From positions 1-64,000 of the forward strand of contig NW_007360625.1 of assembly GCF_000192795.1 (NCBI RefSeq): DNA of 64,000 nucleotides, written 5' to 3'. Below are positions 17,812 through 21,846 of the stretch, one piece after another. Every line of letters begins with the position of its first letter. Position 1 is the stretch's first letter. Source of the stretch: Vavraia culicis subsp. floridensis. Lineage: Eukaryota; Microsporidia; Pleistophoridae. Below the pieces are notes generated by a model. The model saw only the letters and a program-made list of their open reading frames with translations. It did no database searches and was not told the DNA's origin. The position numbers were made by a program, and so were the translations under genes.

Positions 17812-20385
17812 ATGTGCACCCCGTTCTTCGCTATGTTTTTCCTCCTCCTCATGAAATACGTTCGCGGTATTTACGTGTTTGAAACATTCAATAATAACCT
17901 AATATTTGTGGATGAAACCGTTAATGAGCAATGGTCATTCTCAATAAGCAGTATGGTTGATGAGTATGATAACAGAGGCGTAGGAATGGGTGTCCTTGGG
18001 AGTAATTCTGAACTAGCGTATCTGATGAAAAATGAAATTGATCACAATATTACCGATCACGCCAGTGATTCGTCTATTAGCGCTAAGAAGGAGGAAAATT
18101 ACGGCAATGTAGGAGATGCTGGCATGTTAACTGGGAATAAAGGTGAATTAAATACTCTTGTAAGAAAGACGGAGATTATAAATGCTAACGATGAAATGAA
18201 GGATATTGCCGATCAAAATAACGAGGATGATACCGATGTTAGGTCAAATACACCAAGTATTTTGATGAAGGCGACGAATACGCTCAGTAAAATTGAGGAT
18301 TACACGGATGGTAAGGTGTGTGCCAAAATCAAAGAGAAAATCGACAGCTTTGGGTTCACAGAGACAGGAAAGATATATTGCATCGAAAACAAGTGCATTA
18401 TGTACCTCGCCCCACGACTGAGCGACATTATCAATCAGCCGTTTTTATACAAGAACGTACTTATTACGGCCTCAAAACGCAATATCAGCTATGATATAAG
18501 GACGAGTGGCACTACTCTCTACGTAATAATAGGTGTTTTATACGTCCGGCTTATGGATGTGAACAGCAGGTACACGCGCATTCTTAAGTTCTACAACATA
18601 TGTGCGCCGTTTTTCAGCGTTGAAAAAGGTGTAAAAGTTTTGTATGACGTCTTTGAGGATGGGCCGAATCGATTTACGGTGTACGAACCGATAAAGAATG
18701 TTTATAAATTGGAAAATTTTAAAAAGGCGTATTTCTTCCGTAAGATACTGAGAGAAGCACCAGACATGAACGACAGGGTGTGTACAGATTTGAAAATTTT
18801 GGCAATTTTGATGACAACGGTTTTTATAGTGGTGTTGTTTCTACGCAGGGAGAACCATGTAAAGGTAAAAAGAGTGCTACGCGTAGATAAGGGAGTAAAA
18901 TATGCTAGTGGCGTGTTCAACAGACGAAATGTGCTGGTAAAAATACATAACAAGAAGGACATAAGGTACTGTAATGAGCTGCACATCATGAAGATGCTTG
19001 ACATGCCGTGTTTCATTAAATACACGTATAGAGAGGAGAGAAAGCACGAATTCTTGCTGGTTGTAGAGGATTGTGGCAAAAGCTTGCAAGAGAGAATCGA
19101 TGAGGAAGCAAAAGTACTGCCCAACAGCACGAACCACTCTATTACTCACGATAATACGTTCACAATCTCTGAAACCGTGAGCAATGAGGCTAATACGCGT
19201 AACGACGATGCCGAACTCGGTGATGACGCATTATATGAACAGGATGCGTCAAACACGTATGCTTCCGTACACAGCCCAGGTGTGAGCGAGTTTGAGAGCA
19301 CGGTTCGACACACCAAGGCAGACACGTGTAAATTTAGTGAAAATGTCAAGGATTGGCTCAGTTTATTTTTGAAACTTGTACGAGTAGTGCACGAATTGCA
19401 TGCCAAAAATATCGCACATTGTAATTTAACATTTGTGAATATTTTCGTAAAAAATGATGAAGTATTCATCGGTAACTTTGAGGAATGTTTTTTTGATCAG
19501 GAACATGTTCAGACAAGCCGAACGAATGATGAGTCACATGTTGCGAATATTGTAAATACGAATGATAATTTGGTTGATAACGAGCACACAGACAATACCG
19601 AGAACGTTAGCAATGGCTACAAGAAAAGAATTGAAGGATATGTTGATGTACTACGATACCCGAATGAGCACAAATTAGAGTTCGGCCTAGGAACTGAAAA
19701 TTTCAGAGCTCCTGAAATAATTAGGTATAACAGCTTTGATGAACCATTGGACATGGAAAAGTGCAAAAAAGCAGACGTGTTTTCACTTGCAGTAATGTTA
19801 CACACCACAGTTTTTGGTCACCATCCGTTCAACAAGGATAATTACGCAATAGAGGACAACGTGGTACACGATAACTATTCACTGAATAGCAACGTGAAGG
19901 GACCTTTGCTGGATCTGATGCATCACATGCTGAAGAACGATTATAAGGAGCGGCTTGGTATTGGCAGTGTGGAGAGACATCCTGCGTTCTGGGACAATGA
20001 GAAAACGTACAATTTCTACGCTACGCTTAGCGATATTCTGGAGAATAAAAGTGATACATCGTACAAAATATTCTGCAGGTTAGAACGTAACAAGAGCAAA
20101 GTGTTTGCAGGGAACTGGGCGAATATGTTGGACAAGGTTATAAGAGATGAGCTCATTATGCACCGAATATACAACTTTAATGGCCTGAAGGGTCTTCTGA
20201 GGGTGATAAGAAACAAAGGCAGACACTACCAAGAGCTAGCAAGTGAGATACGGCACATATATAAATCATTTCCCGATGGTTTTGTGGAGTATTTCAAGGT
20301 GCGGTTCCCCAACTTACTAATGGTTTGTTACTACTCCGGAAAGGTGGCAGCAACAGAGGAACTCCTCAGAAATTTCTATCGATGA
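17812..20385 (+). CDS. IRE1: IRE1-like ER stress sensor: luminal domain, pseudokinase and KEN RNase
   Basis: An 857-residue type I membrane protein. It has a signal peptide (residues 1-20), a luminal region to about 325, one membrane span (about 327-345), a kinase-like domain (about 365-720) and a C-terminal KEN RNase domain (about 723-857). RNase residues equivalent to human Tyr892, Arg905, Asn906 and His910 are present (Tyr787, Arg800, Asn801, His805 in RNKGRHYQEL). The kinase keeps the beta-3 lysine (VLVKI, Lys377) and GTENFRAPE, but HRD is HCN (536-538), DFG is NFE (555-557) and no glycine-rich loop is visible, so phosphotransfer is unlikely. A low-complexity insert splits the kinase lobes. 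A C-run precedes Met8 (17833), a possible true start. Confidence 0.9.
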   Translation: MCTPFFAMFFLLLMKYVRGIYVFETFNNNLIFVDETVNEQWSFSISSMVDEYDNRGVGMGVLGSNSELAYLMKNEIDHNITDHASDSSISAKKEENYGNVGDAGMLTGNKGELNTLVRKTEIINANDEMKDIADQNNEDDTDVRSNTPSILMKATNTLSKIEDYTDGKVCAKIKEKIDSFGFTETGKIYCIENKCIMYLAPRLSDIINQPFLYKNVLITASKRNISYDIRTSGTTLYVIIGVLYVRLMDVNSRYTRILKFYNICAPFFSVEKGVKVLYDVFEDGPNRFTVYEPIKNVYKLENFKKAYFFRKILREAPDMNDRVCTDLKILAILMTTVFIVVLFLRRENHVKVKRVLRVDKGVKYASGVFNRRNVLVKIHNKKDIRYCNELHIMKMLDMPCFIKYTYREERKHEFLLVVEDCGKSLQERIDEEAKVLPNSTNHSITHDNTFTISETVSNEANTRNDDAELGDDALYEQDASNTYASVHSPGVSEFESTVRHTKADTCKFSENVKDWLSLFLKLVRVVHELHAKNIAHCNLTFVNIFVKNDEVFIGNFEECFFDQEHVQTSRTNDESHVANIVNTNDNLVDNEHTDNTENVSNGYKKRIEGYVDVLRYPNEHKLEFGLGTENFRAPEIIRYNSFDEPLDMEKCKKADVFSLAVMLHTTVFGHHPFNKDNYAIEDNVVHDNYSLNSNVKGPLLDLMHHMLKNDYKERLGIGSVERHPAFWDNEKTYNFYATLSDILENKSDTSYKIFCRLERNKSKVFAGNWANMLDKVIRDELIMHRIYNFNGLKGLLRVIRNKGRHYQELASEIRHIYKSFPDGFVEYFKVRFPNLLMVCYYSGKVAATEELLRNFYR

Positions 20386-20831
20386 ATATTTTTAACATGA
20401 TGCAGGCAGTGCAGTCTTTAAATTATACCGGTGTATATTCCTGGCAGCACGTTAATTTACATGCGAGTGGTGCTTTAATGAAATTATTACCTTCTTACGC
20501 TAATACTAAATAAAGTATTTTCATCGGACAGAACGTTTTACTCCACGCAAATACGAAGGTGCTACAATTTTGACGGAGCACCGCGTGTAAAGTGAAATCT
20601 AAAACAATCATTTCGATGCTGCTACCATTTGGTCGTATAAAATACACCAAGTGAGCATATTATGCAACACGCTAACTCTACTGTTCAAACTGTCCATTTA
20701 CCTCCTGCACACCATCAACATCCAAATAAACACGGTACTATACGCCAACACATTCATTTATTCGCTGCCTTTGCGCTTGTCCGTATGTACGAAATATTTG
20801 GACCGAGCCCAAAATTATAATTTTTGTCATT
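20386..20831. other. Intergenic, POP5 promoter region
   Basis: No gene is seen; AT-rich DNA (AAAATTATAATTTTTG) lies directly before the CCCC start signal of POP5. Confidence 0.5.
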
Positions 20832-20835
20832 CCCC

Positions 20836-21204
20836 ATGGCCACAAAAAAAGTACGCTACGTAATTTTCAAAATCGAGAGTGGCAATAACACGCTGCTGAA
20901 GATGAGTGATGCATCGCTGCTGAATATTTTTAGGGACCAGATGTACGAAATGTACGGTTCCTTTGGTATGATGCACTTTCACAACGTATGCCTGACATTA
21001 TTTCTGCTGCACAACCAAATAATCGTTCTCAAGGTTCCGCGAGCAATAAAGAATGAGATTTGTAGCGCTATGCAGCAGTGTAAGAGTATCGCTGGTAGGA
21101 ATGTGACGTTTAATGCCATCATGGCCAAGAGTTCGATTAAACGGGTCAGAGCGTATTTAAAAGAAAAATTTGAGAAAGAGGAAAGGCTGAGGGGGCAAAG
21201 ATAG
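20836..21204 (+). CDS. POP5: RNase P/MRP protein subunit POP5
   Basis: A 122-residue protein of the POP5/Rpp14 family. It has an N-terminal beta strand (KVRYVIFKIESG), the helix with the family signature LLNIFRDQMYEMYGSFGMM, a strand pair (NQIIVLKVPRAI) and the C-terminal helices (SSIKRVRAYLKEKF). POP5 binds the catalytic RNA of RNase P and MRP, in tRNA 5' processing and rRNA processing. The length is a little under human POP5 (163). The start at 20836 is directly preceded by CCCC. The gene converges on the zinc-finger gene downstream. A candidate RNase P/MRP RNA lies about 8 kb upstream (12590). Confidence 0.85.
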   Translation: MATKKVRYVIFKIESGNNTLLKMSDASLLNIFRDQMYEMYGSFGMMHFHNVCLTLFLLHNQIIVLKVPRAIKNEICSAMQQCKSIAGRNVTFNAIMAKSSIKRVRAYLKEKFEKEERLRGQR

Positions 21205-21357: not shown

Positions 21358-21846
21358 TTATTGCAGATATTCATCCCAACCTTTGTTTGTGTGGTGAATT
21401 ACGCCATTTATTTCATTTTTGGCACGTATTAATATTTTGTCAGCAATTAATTTTCTTATGAACTGATTGCTCATTACAAGCGCGTTATTTTTCATTCTTT
21501 CTTCCGTGATCATTACCTTAAATCTATCTATGATGCCGTTAAGTTCGTTTATATGGTAGATTAGCTCTTTGTTGTATGAATCTGCTTTTTCGTGTCTTTT
21601 AATATGCTTATTAAGTGCATCGGAGCGCGTGTAGGTCTTGTCGCATTCGTTACACTTGAACGGTCTGTCACCGGTATGTTTTCTCAGATGGGCCTGCAGC
21701 GTGTACTTGGTGCTGTGCGGATCACGCTTCTTGCAGCCTTCCCAGAGACATGTCAGAGACTCATTGGTGTGGTTGTTCGTGTGTTTGACCAGATCATCGT
21801 GATTATCCGTCGTGTATTCGCACTCCCTCCATTTGCATTCGAGCAT
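21358..21846 (-). CDS. C2H2 zinc-finger protein, Iec1-like
   Basis: A 162-residue protein with three consecutive C2H2 fingers: CKWRECEYTTDNHDDLVKHTNNH, with GLI/ZIC-like two-residue-extended spacing; CLWEGCKKRDPH...HLRKH; and, after the canonical linker TGDRPFK, CNECDKTYTRSDALNKHIKRH. A helical C-terminal tail follows (NELNGIIDRFKVMITEERMKNNAL). The third finger with TRSDALNKH and the tail recall fungal Iec1, a subunit of the INO80 chromatin remodeller, but other fungal DNA-binding C2H2 proteins share this finger. A C-run (21856-21858) precedes the ATG. Confidence 0.85.
   Translation of the reverse strand: MLECKWRECEYTTDNHDDLVKHTNNHTNESLTCLWEGCKKRDPHSTKYTLQAHLRKHTGDRPFKCNECDKTYTRSDALNKHIKRHEKADSYNKELIYHINELNGIIDRFKVMITEERMKNNALVMSNQFIRKLIADKILIRAKNEINGVIHHTNKGWDEYLQ

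Follow-up and report, generated by a model that had tools for sequence, protein, structure and literature searches.

An IRE1-type protein of Vavraia culicis with a predicted pseudokinase and retained RNase residues

Whether IRE1 needs the chemistry of its kinase or only the kinase fold has been debated from engineered mutants, with results that differ between yeast, Candida and human cells. A natural protein raises the same question in Vavraia culicis subsp. floridensis (assembly GCF_000192795.1), where an IRE1-like gene lies within the window analysed here, positions 1 to 64,000 of contig NW_007360625.1. A kinase dead by motif joined to a ribonuclease (RNase) with intact active-site residues, proposed for this gene in an earlier note made from the sequence alone, proved common to all 26 aligned proteins. 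Judged by sequence and predicted structure, the product is an IRE1-derived, membrane-anchored pseudokinase-RNase, IRE1 by architecture and a non-kinase by motif.

Loss of the phosphotransfer residues

17812-20385, plus strand: IRE1-like gene, one uninterrupted open reading frame (ORF) in one exon, 857 aa; the only Ribonuc_2-5A (KEN) match in the whole assembly (5.63 Mb, 80 contigs)
19417-19440, plus strand: degenerate catalytic loop HCNLTFVN, residues 536-543 (Asp replaced by Asn538, Lys by Thr540, Asn543 retained)
19474-19482, plus strand: NFE replacing DFG, residues 555-557, from the alignment

The motifs named in the earlier note were found as described when positions were read in the ORF: HCN (residues 536-538, 19417-19425) instead of HRD, NFE (555-557, 19474-19482) instead of DFG, and the beta-3 lysine 377 still present (18940-18942). 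The glycine-rich loop is indeed degenerate, the third glycine (361) alone being left of GxGxxG, in a drifting column (10 parsimony steps). When the protein was searched with [HY]xD[LIVMF] and D[FLYMW]G as patterns, the sole hit was YVDVLRYP at 610, and DFG was absent; true motifs elsewhere, which would have refuted the earlier note, were therefore rejected. The span 19000-20385 first assigned to the feature starts within the N-lobe and omits Lys377, Glu389 and the luminal and membrane parts.

The alignment comprised the window protein, 25 relatives and three outgroup IRE1-type proteins (P0021-P0023). Every homologue from a first protein search and from a KEN-region search, which contributed six relatives (P0061-P0066), was included except P0001, a copy of the window protein. 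An alignment-based search gave 40 rows, mostly other kinases, of which three were already known (P0001-P0003) and 37 (P0024-P0060) were left out. Counts below refer to the 26 rows formed by the window protein and its relatives, some of them close kin (e.g. P0013-P0015). The nearest relative, at 66% identity, was P0002 from Trachipleistophora hominis, likewise a microsporidian of the Pleistophoridae. Six others (P0007, P0010, P0018, P0019, P0061 and P0066) also bear names of genera that we take to be microsporidian, while the source code of P0015, Antlo1, presumably stands for Antonospora locustae, and the record of P0016 bears the label of unverified contamination within a louse assembly. None of the three homologue searches returned a relative named Mitosporidium or Rozella.

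The catalytic Asp was present in none of the 26 rows (Asn in 23, Ser in two, Phe in one), and neither was the HRDxK Lys; Asn543 was retained in 25. At the DFG motif, Asp was replaced by Asn in 25 rows and Gly was lost from all 26 (Glu in 21, Asp in three, Cys in two), leaving no intact DFG. All three outgroup rows kept the catalytic Asp and had DMG or DVG. Three other MAFFT strategies left the counts unchanged, except that one placed a gap at the DFG-Gly position in two of the 26 rows. The alignment with microsporidian relatives suggested in the earlier note thus revealed changes at the same HCN and NFE positions in all 25, which rules out sequencing or assembly error and chance, and by sequence the phosphotransfer residues are lost across the whole clade sampled.

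Some predicted pseudokinases retain activity, and both Lys377 and Glu389 are kept here, so that phosphate transfer by an atypical mechanism was considered. It is judged very improbable, as the catalytic Asp, the HRDxK Lys and an intact DFG are each absent from all 26 rows, and as the activation segment, 69 residues long in the window protein, is reduced in seven rows to 4-10 residues, leaving little to phosphorylate.

Kinases of the same genome served as a control. Of 34 matches, 30 with loci read corresponded to 28 genes, and one of the four unread was the IRE1-like gene itself. The catalytic Asp was kept, by pattern or by eye, in 25 of the 27 assessable genes. It was absent from loci L021 (HKN, DFG kept) and L025 (YRS, no DFG seen), which are possible pseudokinases. 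The remaining locus, L029, starts behind the catalytic loop; this kinase C-lobe piece (G000 C31:3018-3449, minus strand) contains one in-frame TGA and may represent a pseudogene or result from misassembly.

Retained switch, spine and RNase residues

18940-18942, plus strand: beta-3 Lys377 (yeast K702, human K599), invariant in 26/26 rows
18976-18978, plus strand: alpha-C Glu389 (yeast E715, human E612), invariant in 26/26 rows
18934-18936, plus strand: Leu375 at the catalytic spine (C-spine) Ala position of beta-3, with Ala, Gly and Ser absent there from all 26 rows
20170-20172, plus strand: KEN Tyr787 (human Tyr892), 26/26 rows
20209-20226, plus strand: RNKGRH, residues 800-805, with catalytic Arg800, Asn801 and His805; Gly803-Arg804 (yeast Y1059-H1060) a clade signature in 26/26 rows
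20023-20025, plus strand: Thr738 at the RNase dimer contact (yeast K992 equivalent), where all 26 rows have N, T, S, H or A

By sequence and model, the clade keeps the kinase fold and the KEN active-site residues, together with the Lys377-Glu389 pair and a regulatory spine (R-spine) of hydrophobic or aromatic residues. Both partners of the Lys-Glu salt bridge of the allosteric switch occurred in every row. The R-spine positions, assigned from the human residues given in PMC4536996, were hydrophobic or aromatic at 393 (L20 M4 I2), 404 (Y20 F4 L2), 536 (Y20 H4 F1 V1) and 556 (F23 V2 Y1).

Signs of nucleotide binding conflict in these sequences, the kept Lys377 and Asn543 being set against an altered C-spine and the lost glycine loop. 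Two residues before the beta-3 Lys, the C-spine Ala of all three outgroups was replaced throughout (L8 T6 I5 M4 V1 E1 K1), and the beta-2 Val position, as aligned, was mostly polar. In other kinases, Phe at this Ala position blocked ATP while the closed fold was kept (PMC12721161); the same report stresses Phe and describes Val in KSR1 as not acting so. By analogy, an ATP block by Leu, Met or Thr would be only suggestive.

In the KEN region (residues 728-857), 24 columns were invariant in all 26 rows. The residues that the earlier note had matched to human Tyr892, Arg905, Asn906 and His910 are Tyr787, Arg800, Asn801 and His805, and each was found in 26/26 rows, with no loss in any relative. 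For the dimer contact, 230 orthologues were sorted in PMC8104961 by yeast positions 988, 992 and 1059 into 175 S. pombe-like and 33 S. cerevisiae-like sequences, the authors excluding "difficult to place microsporidian RNases" from their deep alignment. Here, the 992 position was N13 T8 S2 H2 A1, the 988 position N21 L2 E2 H1, and the 1059 position Gly, followed by Arg, in all 26 rows. Arg804 is, by position, a candidate for a substitute contact residue.

Domain architecture

17872-18780, plus strand: putative luminal part, residues 21-323, beta-rich in the AlphaFold2 (AF2) model, with predicted local distance difference test (pLDDT) below 50 at 58-173
18787-18843, plus strand: transmembrane (TM) helix, residues 326-344, the most hydrophobic 19-mer; the AF2 helix spans 319-344
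18847-19080, plus strand: pseudokinase N-lobe, residues 346-423, glycine loop degenerate, from profile and fold comparison
19081-19326, plus strand: lineage-specific insert 1, residues 424-505, AF2 confidence mostly low
19492-19665, plus strand: insert 2, residues 561-618, inside the activation segment, from the alignment
19666-19992, plus strand: pseudokinase C-lobe, residues 619-727 (Pfam Pkinase 618-726; fold comparison)
20008-20379, plus strand: KEN RNase domain, residues 733-856 (Pfam Ribonuc_2-5A, E 1.7e-32)

A kinase fold fused to a KEN domain was recovered by Pfam, PDB match, profile and fold comparison. The best Pfam protein kinase stretch was the C-lobe (618-726), PK_Tyr_Ser-Thr matching 369-553 only below its cut-off. 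With the single sequence, phmmer against PDB placed yeast and human IRE1 on top over residues 626-856 (E 6.9e-27), while the family profile, which itself contains two outgroup IRE1 rows, covered the human IRE1 kinase-KEN unit (E 1.9e-86). For the AF2 model, all 50 Foldseek matches listed were IRE1; the VIA-align fold comparison bears on residues 346-857 and barely on the parts outside.

Hydropathy showed a hydrophobic N-terminus in addition to the TM helix. No ankyrin family was among the five Pfam matches of the window protein up to E 10, and no NCBIfam model came near its cut-off. RNase L as the identity of the protein was ruled out by the TM helix and the lack of an ankyrin match.

Ancestry and rate of change

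In a maximum-likelihood tree built on the cytosolic core, the 26 rows grouped together with support of 100/100 against the three outgroup rows, with a long-branch warning from the tree program. The only Asp at the DFG position, in Hamiltosporidium P0010 (DFE), lay inside a 14-row group (support 80/94). Because of this nested position, it is more simply read as a reversal than as a relic, although the fork in question is open.

After removal of the 12 kinase columns that had over two gaps, parsimony steps were counted for 226 of 238 on the 26-row tree (length 16.5 changes per column). The median was nine steps per column. Lys377 and Glu389 required none, Asn543 and Asn555 one each, Asn538 and Phe556 two each, and Glu557 three, compared with seven at the HRD Arg position and 10 at both the HRDxK and the third glycine-loop positions. 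Columns changing no oftener than these residues numbered 17 of 226 for Asn555, 27 for Asn538 and 35 for Glu557. Given so few steps, the residues replacing the catalytic ones are held while their neighbours drift. Six of 235 kinase columns were invariant in the 26 rows (K377, E389, L702, H723, P724 and F726).

These rates bear on the possibility that the kinase half is drifting and the protein heading for loss, as in Encephalitozoon cuniculi, which was reported to lack Ire1 (PMC2078597). The long divergent inserts and the drift of the glycine loop and HRDxK position would agree with such decay. Against it, the window ORF is open, the 25 relatives are proteins with KEN domains, and Asn538, Asn555 and Glu557 are held. 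Identity to T. hominis was also far from uniform, reaching 84% in KEN, 83% in the late C-lobe and 70% in the N-lobe but only 37% and 30% in the inserts; the late and early luminal parts stood at 80% and 48%. Decay of the gene is accordingly given very little credence.

Proposed activation without phosphotransfer

The protein is probably a conformational-relay sensor, a reading that rests on sequence and models and extends to the microsporidian-clade proteins examined: a pseudokinase fold without phosphorylation and a KEN RNase driven by clustering. Luminal parts would cluster and pseudokinases pack back to back, Lys377-Glu389 would hold alpha-C 'in', and the paired KEN domains would then cut RNA. 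The kinase fold would no longer phosphorylate and would serve only as the relay. Control by ATP or ADP seems unlikely because the adenine cap is altered at 375 and the glycine loop is lost, which would leave the sensor without phosphorylation as a timer and without tuning by ADP.

Work on yeast Ire1 offers partial precedents. The D797N/K799N mutant was reported to be unphosphorylated and to promote HAC1 splicing under stress control, and was described as ADP-independent (PMC7904763). Oligomers of apo-Ire1 adopt the active alpha-C 'in' state, in E715K (the alpha-C Glu) both RNase activity and oligomers are reduced to traces, a larger effect than lost phosphorylation would account for, and D828A loses the response to ADP-Mg (PMC3158555). 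In the alignment, Glu389 corresponds to E715, and Asn555, at the DFG Asp, to D828. By this analogy, the set of kept (Lys-Glu) and lost residues (D797, K799, D828) would fit a sensor relying on oligomerisation only.

A rival reading is an RNase L-like arrangement, in which phosphotransfer is lost, ATP or ADP is still bound and aids the RNase, and Glu557 at the DFG Gly takes over metal binding. In RNase L, itself a KEN pseudokinase, ATP is bound and Asp505 at the DFG Gly position contacts one cation (PMC4718504). Lys377 in all rows, Asn543 in 25 and an acidic residue at 557 in 24 of 26 agree with this arrangement, as does the ADP still bound by yeast D797N/K799N (PMC3158555). It is nonetheless considered somewhat unlikely, given the C-spine Ala replaced in 26/26 rows, the mostly polar beta-2 Val position, the missing glycine loop and the unresponsiveness of D828A to ADP-Mg.

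Several observations count against the conformational relay. Yeast D797N/K799N requires a higher concentration for activity, and its affinity for ADP was found to be similar (PMC3158555), which makes it an imperfect stand-in for a nucleotide-free sensor. Human cells homozygous for D688N showed no XBP1 splicing (PMC12080931), overexpressed D688N dimerised and spliced XBP1 only slightly unless a ligand was added (PMC7736581), and kinase-dead Ire1 of C. glabrata failed to complement (PMC3561209). Such engineered alleles thus do harm in some systems, and a working RNase would require compensation elsewhere in the clade. Neither known salt-bridge pattern (992 with 988 or with 1059) was seen in the 26 rows, and a yeast mutant with neither bridge formed no dimer and cut about 100-fold less HAC1 substrate (PMC8104961); the clade would therefore need another RNase contact. 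Phe, the only residue reported to block ATP at the C-spine Ala position (PMC12721161), occurred in 0/26 rows, and the retained Lys377 and Asn543 are compatible with residual nucleotide binding. Profile comparison of the putative luminal part with outgroup IRE1 luminal parts gave no clear match (hhalign probability 1.1, E 0.02; reversed control probability 0.1, E 0.47). In addition, P0010 has the DFG Asp, and for 17 of the 25 relatives the source gives no microsporidian name, their assignment to the group following from their placement in the tree with named ones.

The earlier note had reasoned that, as nucleotide binding and phosphorylation drive the RNase in yeast and animals, luminal clustering alone must switch this sensor on. 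This is plausible but too strong, since D797N/K799N is reported to be activated in the absence of both (PMC7904763) and apo oligomers take the active alpha-C state (PMC3158555). The kept Lys377 and Asn543 may also still allow nucleotide binding, and homology of the luminal part to IRE1 is only putative.

RNA output

One clear bZIP gene was found in the assembly (G000 C25:55995-56171, minus strand; locus L032:1432-1704; about 90 aa), a second, bZIP_2 match (contig C61) being below the cut-off and within a 1131-codon frame. An open frame of about 50 codons, which may be due to chance, overlaps the gene behind the zipper, making it a candidate HAC1-like gene. The surroundings of this single gene were scanned for HAC1/XBP1-like stem-loops. 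In the 3.2-kb bZIP locus, no CNGNNGN loop with a stem of at least four pairs was present on either strand; with stems of at least three, a single loop of this type, about 1.2 kb upstream, was present on the coding strand, without a twin. A lone looser site near the gene reads TTGCAGA with an AAAA/TTTT stem. The bZIP gene with twin stem-loops for which the earlier note proposed a search is thus represented by a bZIP gene without the twin CNG pair on its coding strand.

An RtcB-type RNA ligase is encoded in the same genome (G000 C74:2640-3998, plus strand; locus L033; 514-aa ORF), RtcB having been noted in microsporidia in a review (PMC13247085). A tRNA-splicing endonuclease was also matched, and RtcB could therefore have a job without an mRNA substrate. 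Archease gave no match in the genome and matches in 6 of 14 control genomes; a Trl1-type ligase gave none in the genome, a blank made uninformative by its absence from every control genome.

A splicing unfolded protein response, in which the RNase cuts the bZIP mRNA and RtcB seals it as in animals, concerns the output only and is compatible with the conformational relay. The single bZIP gene with its overlapping frame and the presence of RtcB speak for it, but it is judged unlikely, with no twin CNG stem-loops at the locus and with RtcB otherwise employed if the endonuclease is active. Decay is slightly favoured over splicing, and RNA decay as the somewhat likelier output would be a guess.

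Neighbouring genes and chaperones

Just downstream of the IRE1-like gene lies a gene for an Rpp14/Pop5 family protein (RNase P/MRP subunit; 20824-21204, plus strand; E 1.7e-15), followed by one for a C2H2 zinc-finger protein matching Zap1 zinc finger 1 (21358-21846, minus strand). HSP70 gave four matches in three genes of the same genome.

Relation to known systems and significance

Compared with yeast Ire1 and human IRE1alpha (IRE1/ERN1), the clade proteins lack the catalytic Asp, DFG and a full glycine loop, their C-spine is altered, and their RNase contact fits neither of the patterns published for 175 and 33 of 230 orthologues (PMC8104961). They resemble RNase L in combining a KEN domain with an inactive kinase fold, here by motif only; RNase L, however, has an ankyrin domain, 2-5A activation and canonical nucleotide binding (PMC4718504), whereas the present protein has a TM helix, no ankyrin match and Asn for the DFG Asp. 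As in yeast D797N/K799N and human D688N, the catalytic Asp is Asn (23/26 rows) and the same Lys position is lost (26/26), but the change is natural and clade-wide, and DFG, glycine loop and C-spine are changed too. The beta-3 Ala is the one changed in KSR1 A587F, for which an active-like fold without ATP was proposed (PMC12721161); here it is Leu, Thr, Ile, Met, Val, Glu or Lys, and in no row Phe.

No microsporidian IRE1 pseudokinase was the subject of any of the titles and abstract openings listed by searches of an open-access library, subscription journals being mostly outside this scope. By word search, IRE1 and the whole word IRE were absent from the main text of a kinome paper on four microsporidia (PMC4280135), and IRE1 from the searched text of the T. 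hominis transcriptome and Spraguea genome papers (PMC4654818, PMC3749934).

A bolder and more tentative possibility is that the lineage turned IRE1 into a nucleotide- and phosphate-independent sensor, with an active-like fold maintained by an Asn-Asn-Phe-Glu pseudo-active site and by the change in the adenine cap, oligomerisation as its sole switch, and a third class of KEN contact (RNKGRH, no 992/1059 bridge). Such a sensor would, if real, parallel in nature the kinase-bypass mutants of yeast and be uncoupled from the ADP/ATP ratio in parasites that are regarded as drawing on host ATP. Evolution seems to have produced the kinase-dead mutant itself and kept it throughout the clade sampled, with the Lys-Glu pair of the oligomerisation model frozen. 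That model would thereby become directly testable on natural proteins, and the clade would join RNase L as a second group of KEN pseudokinases.
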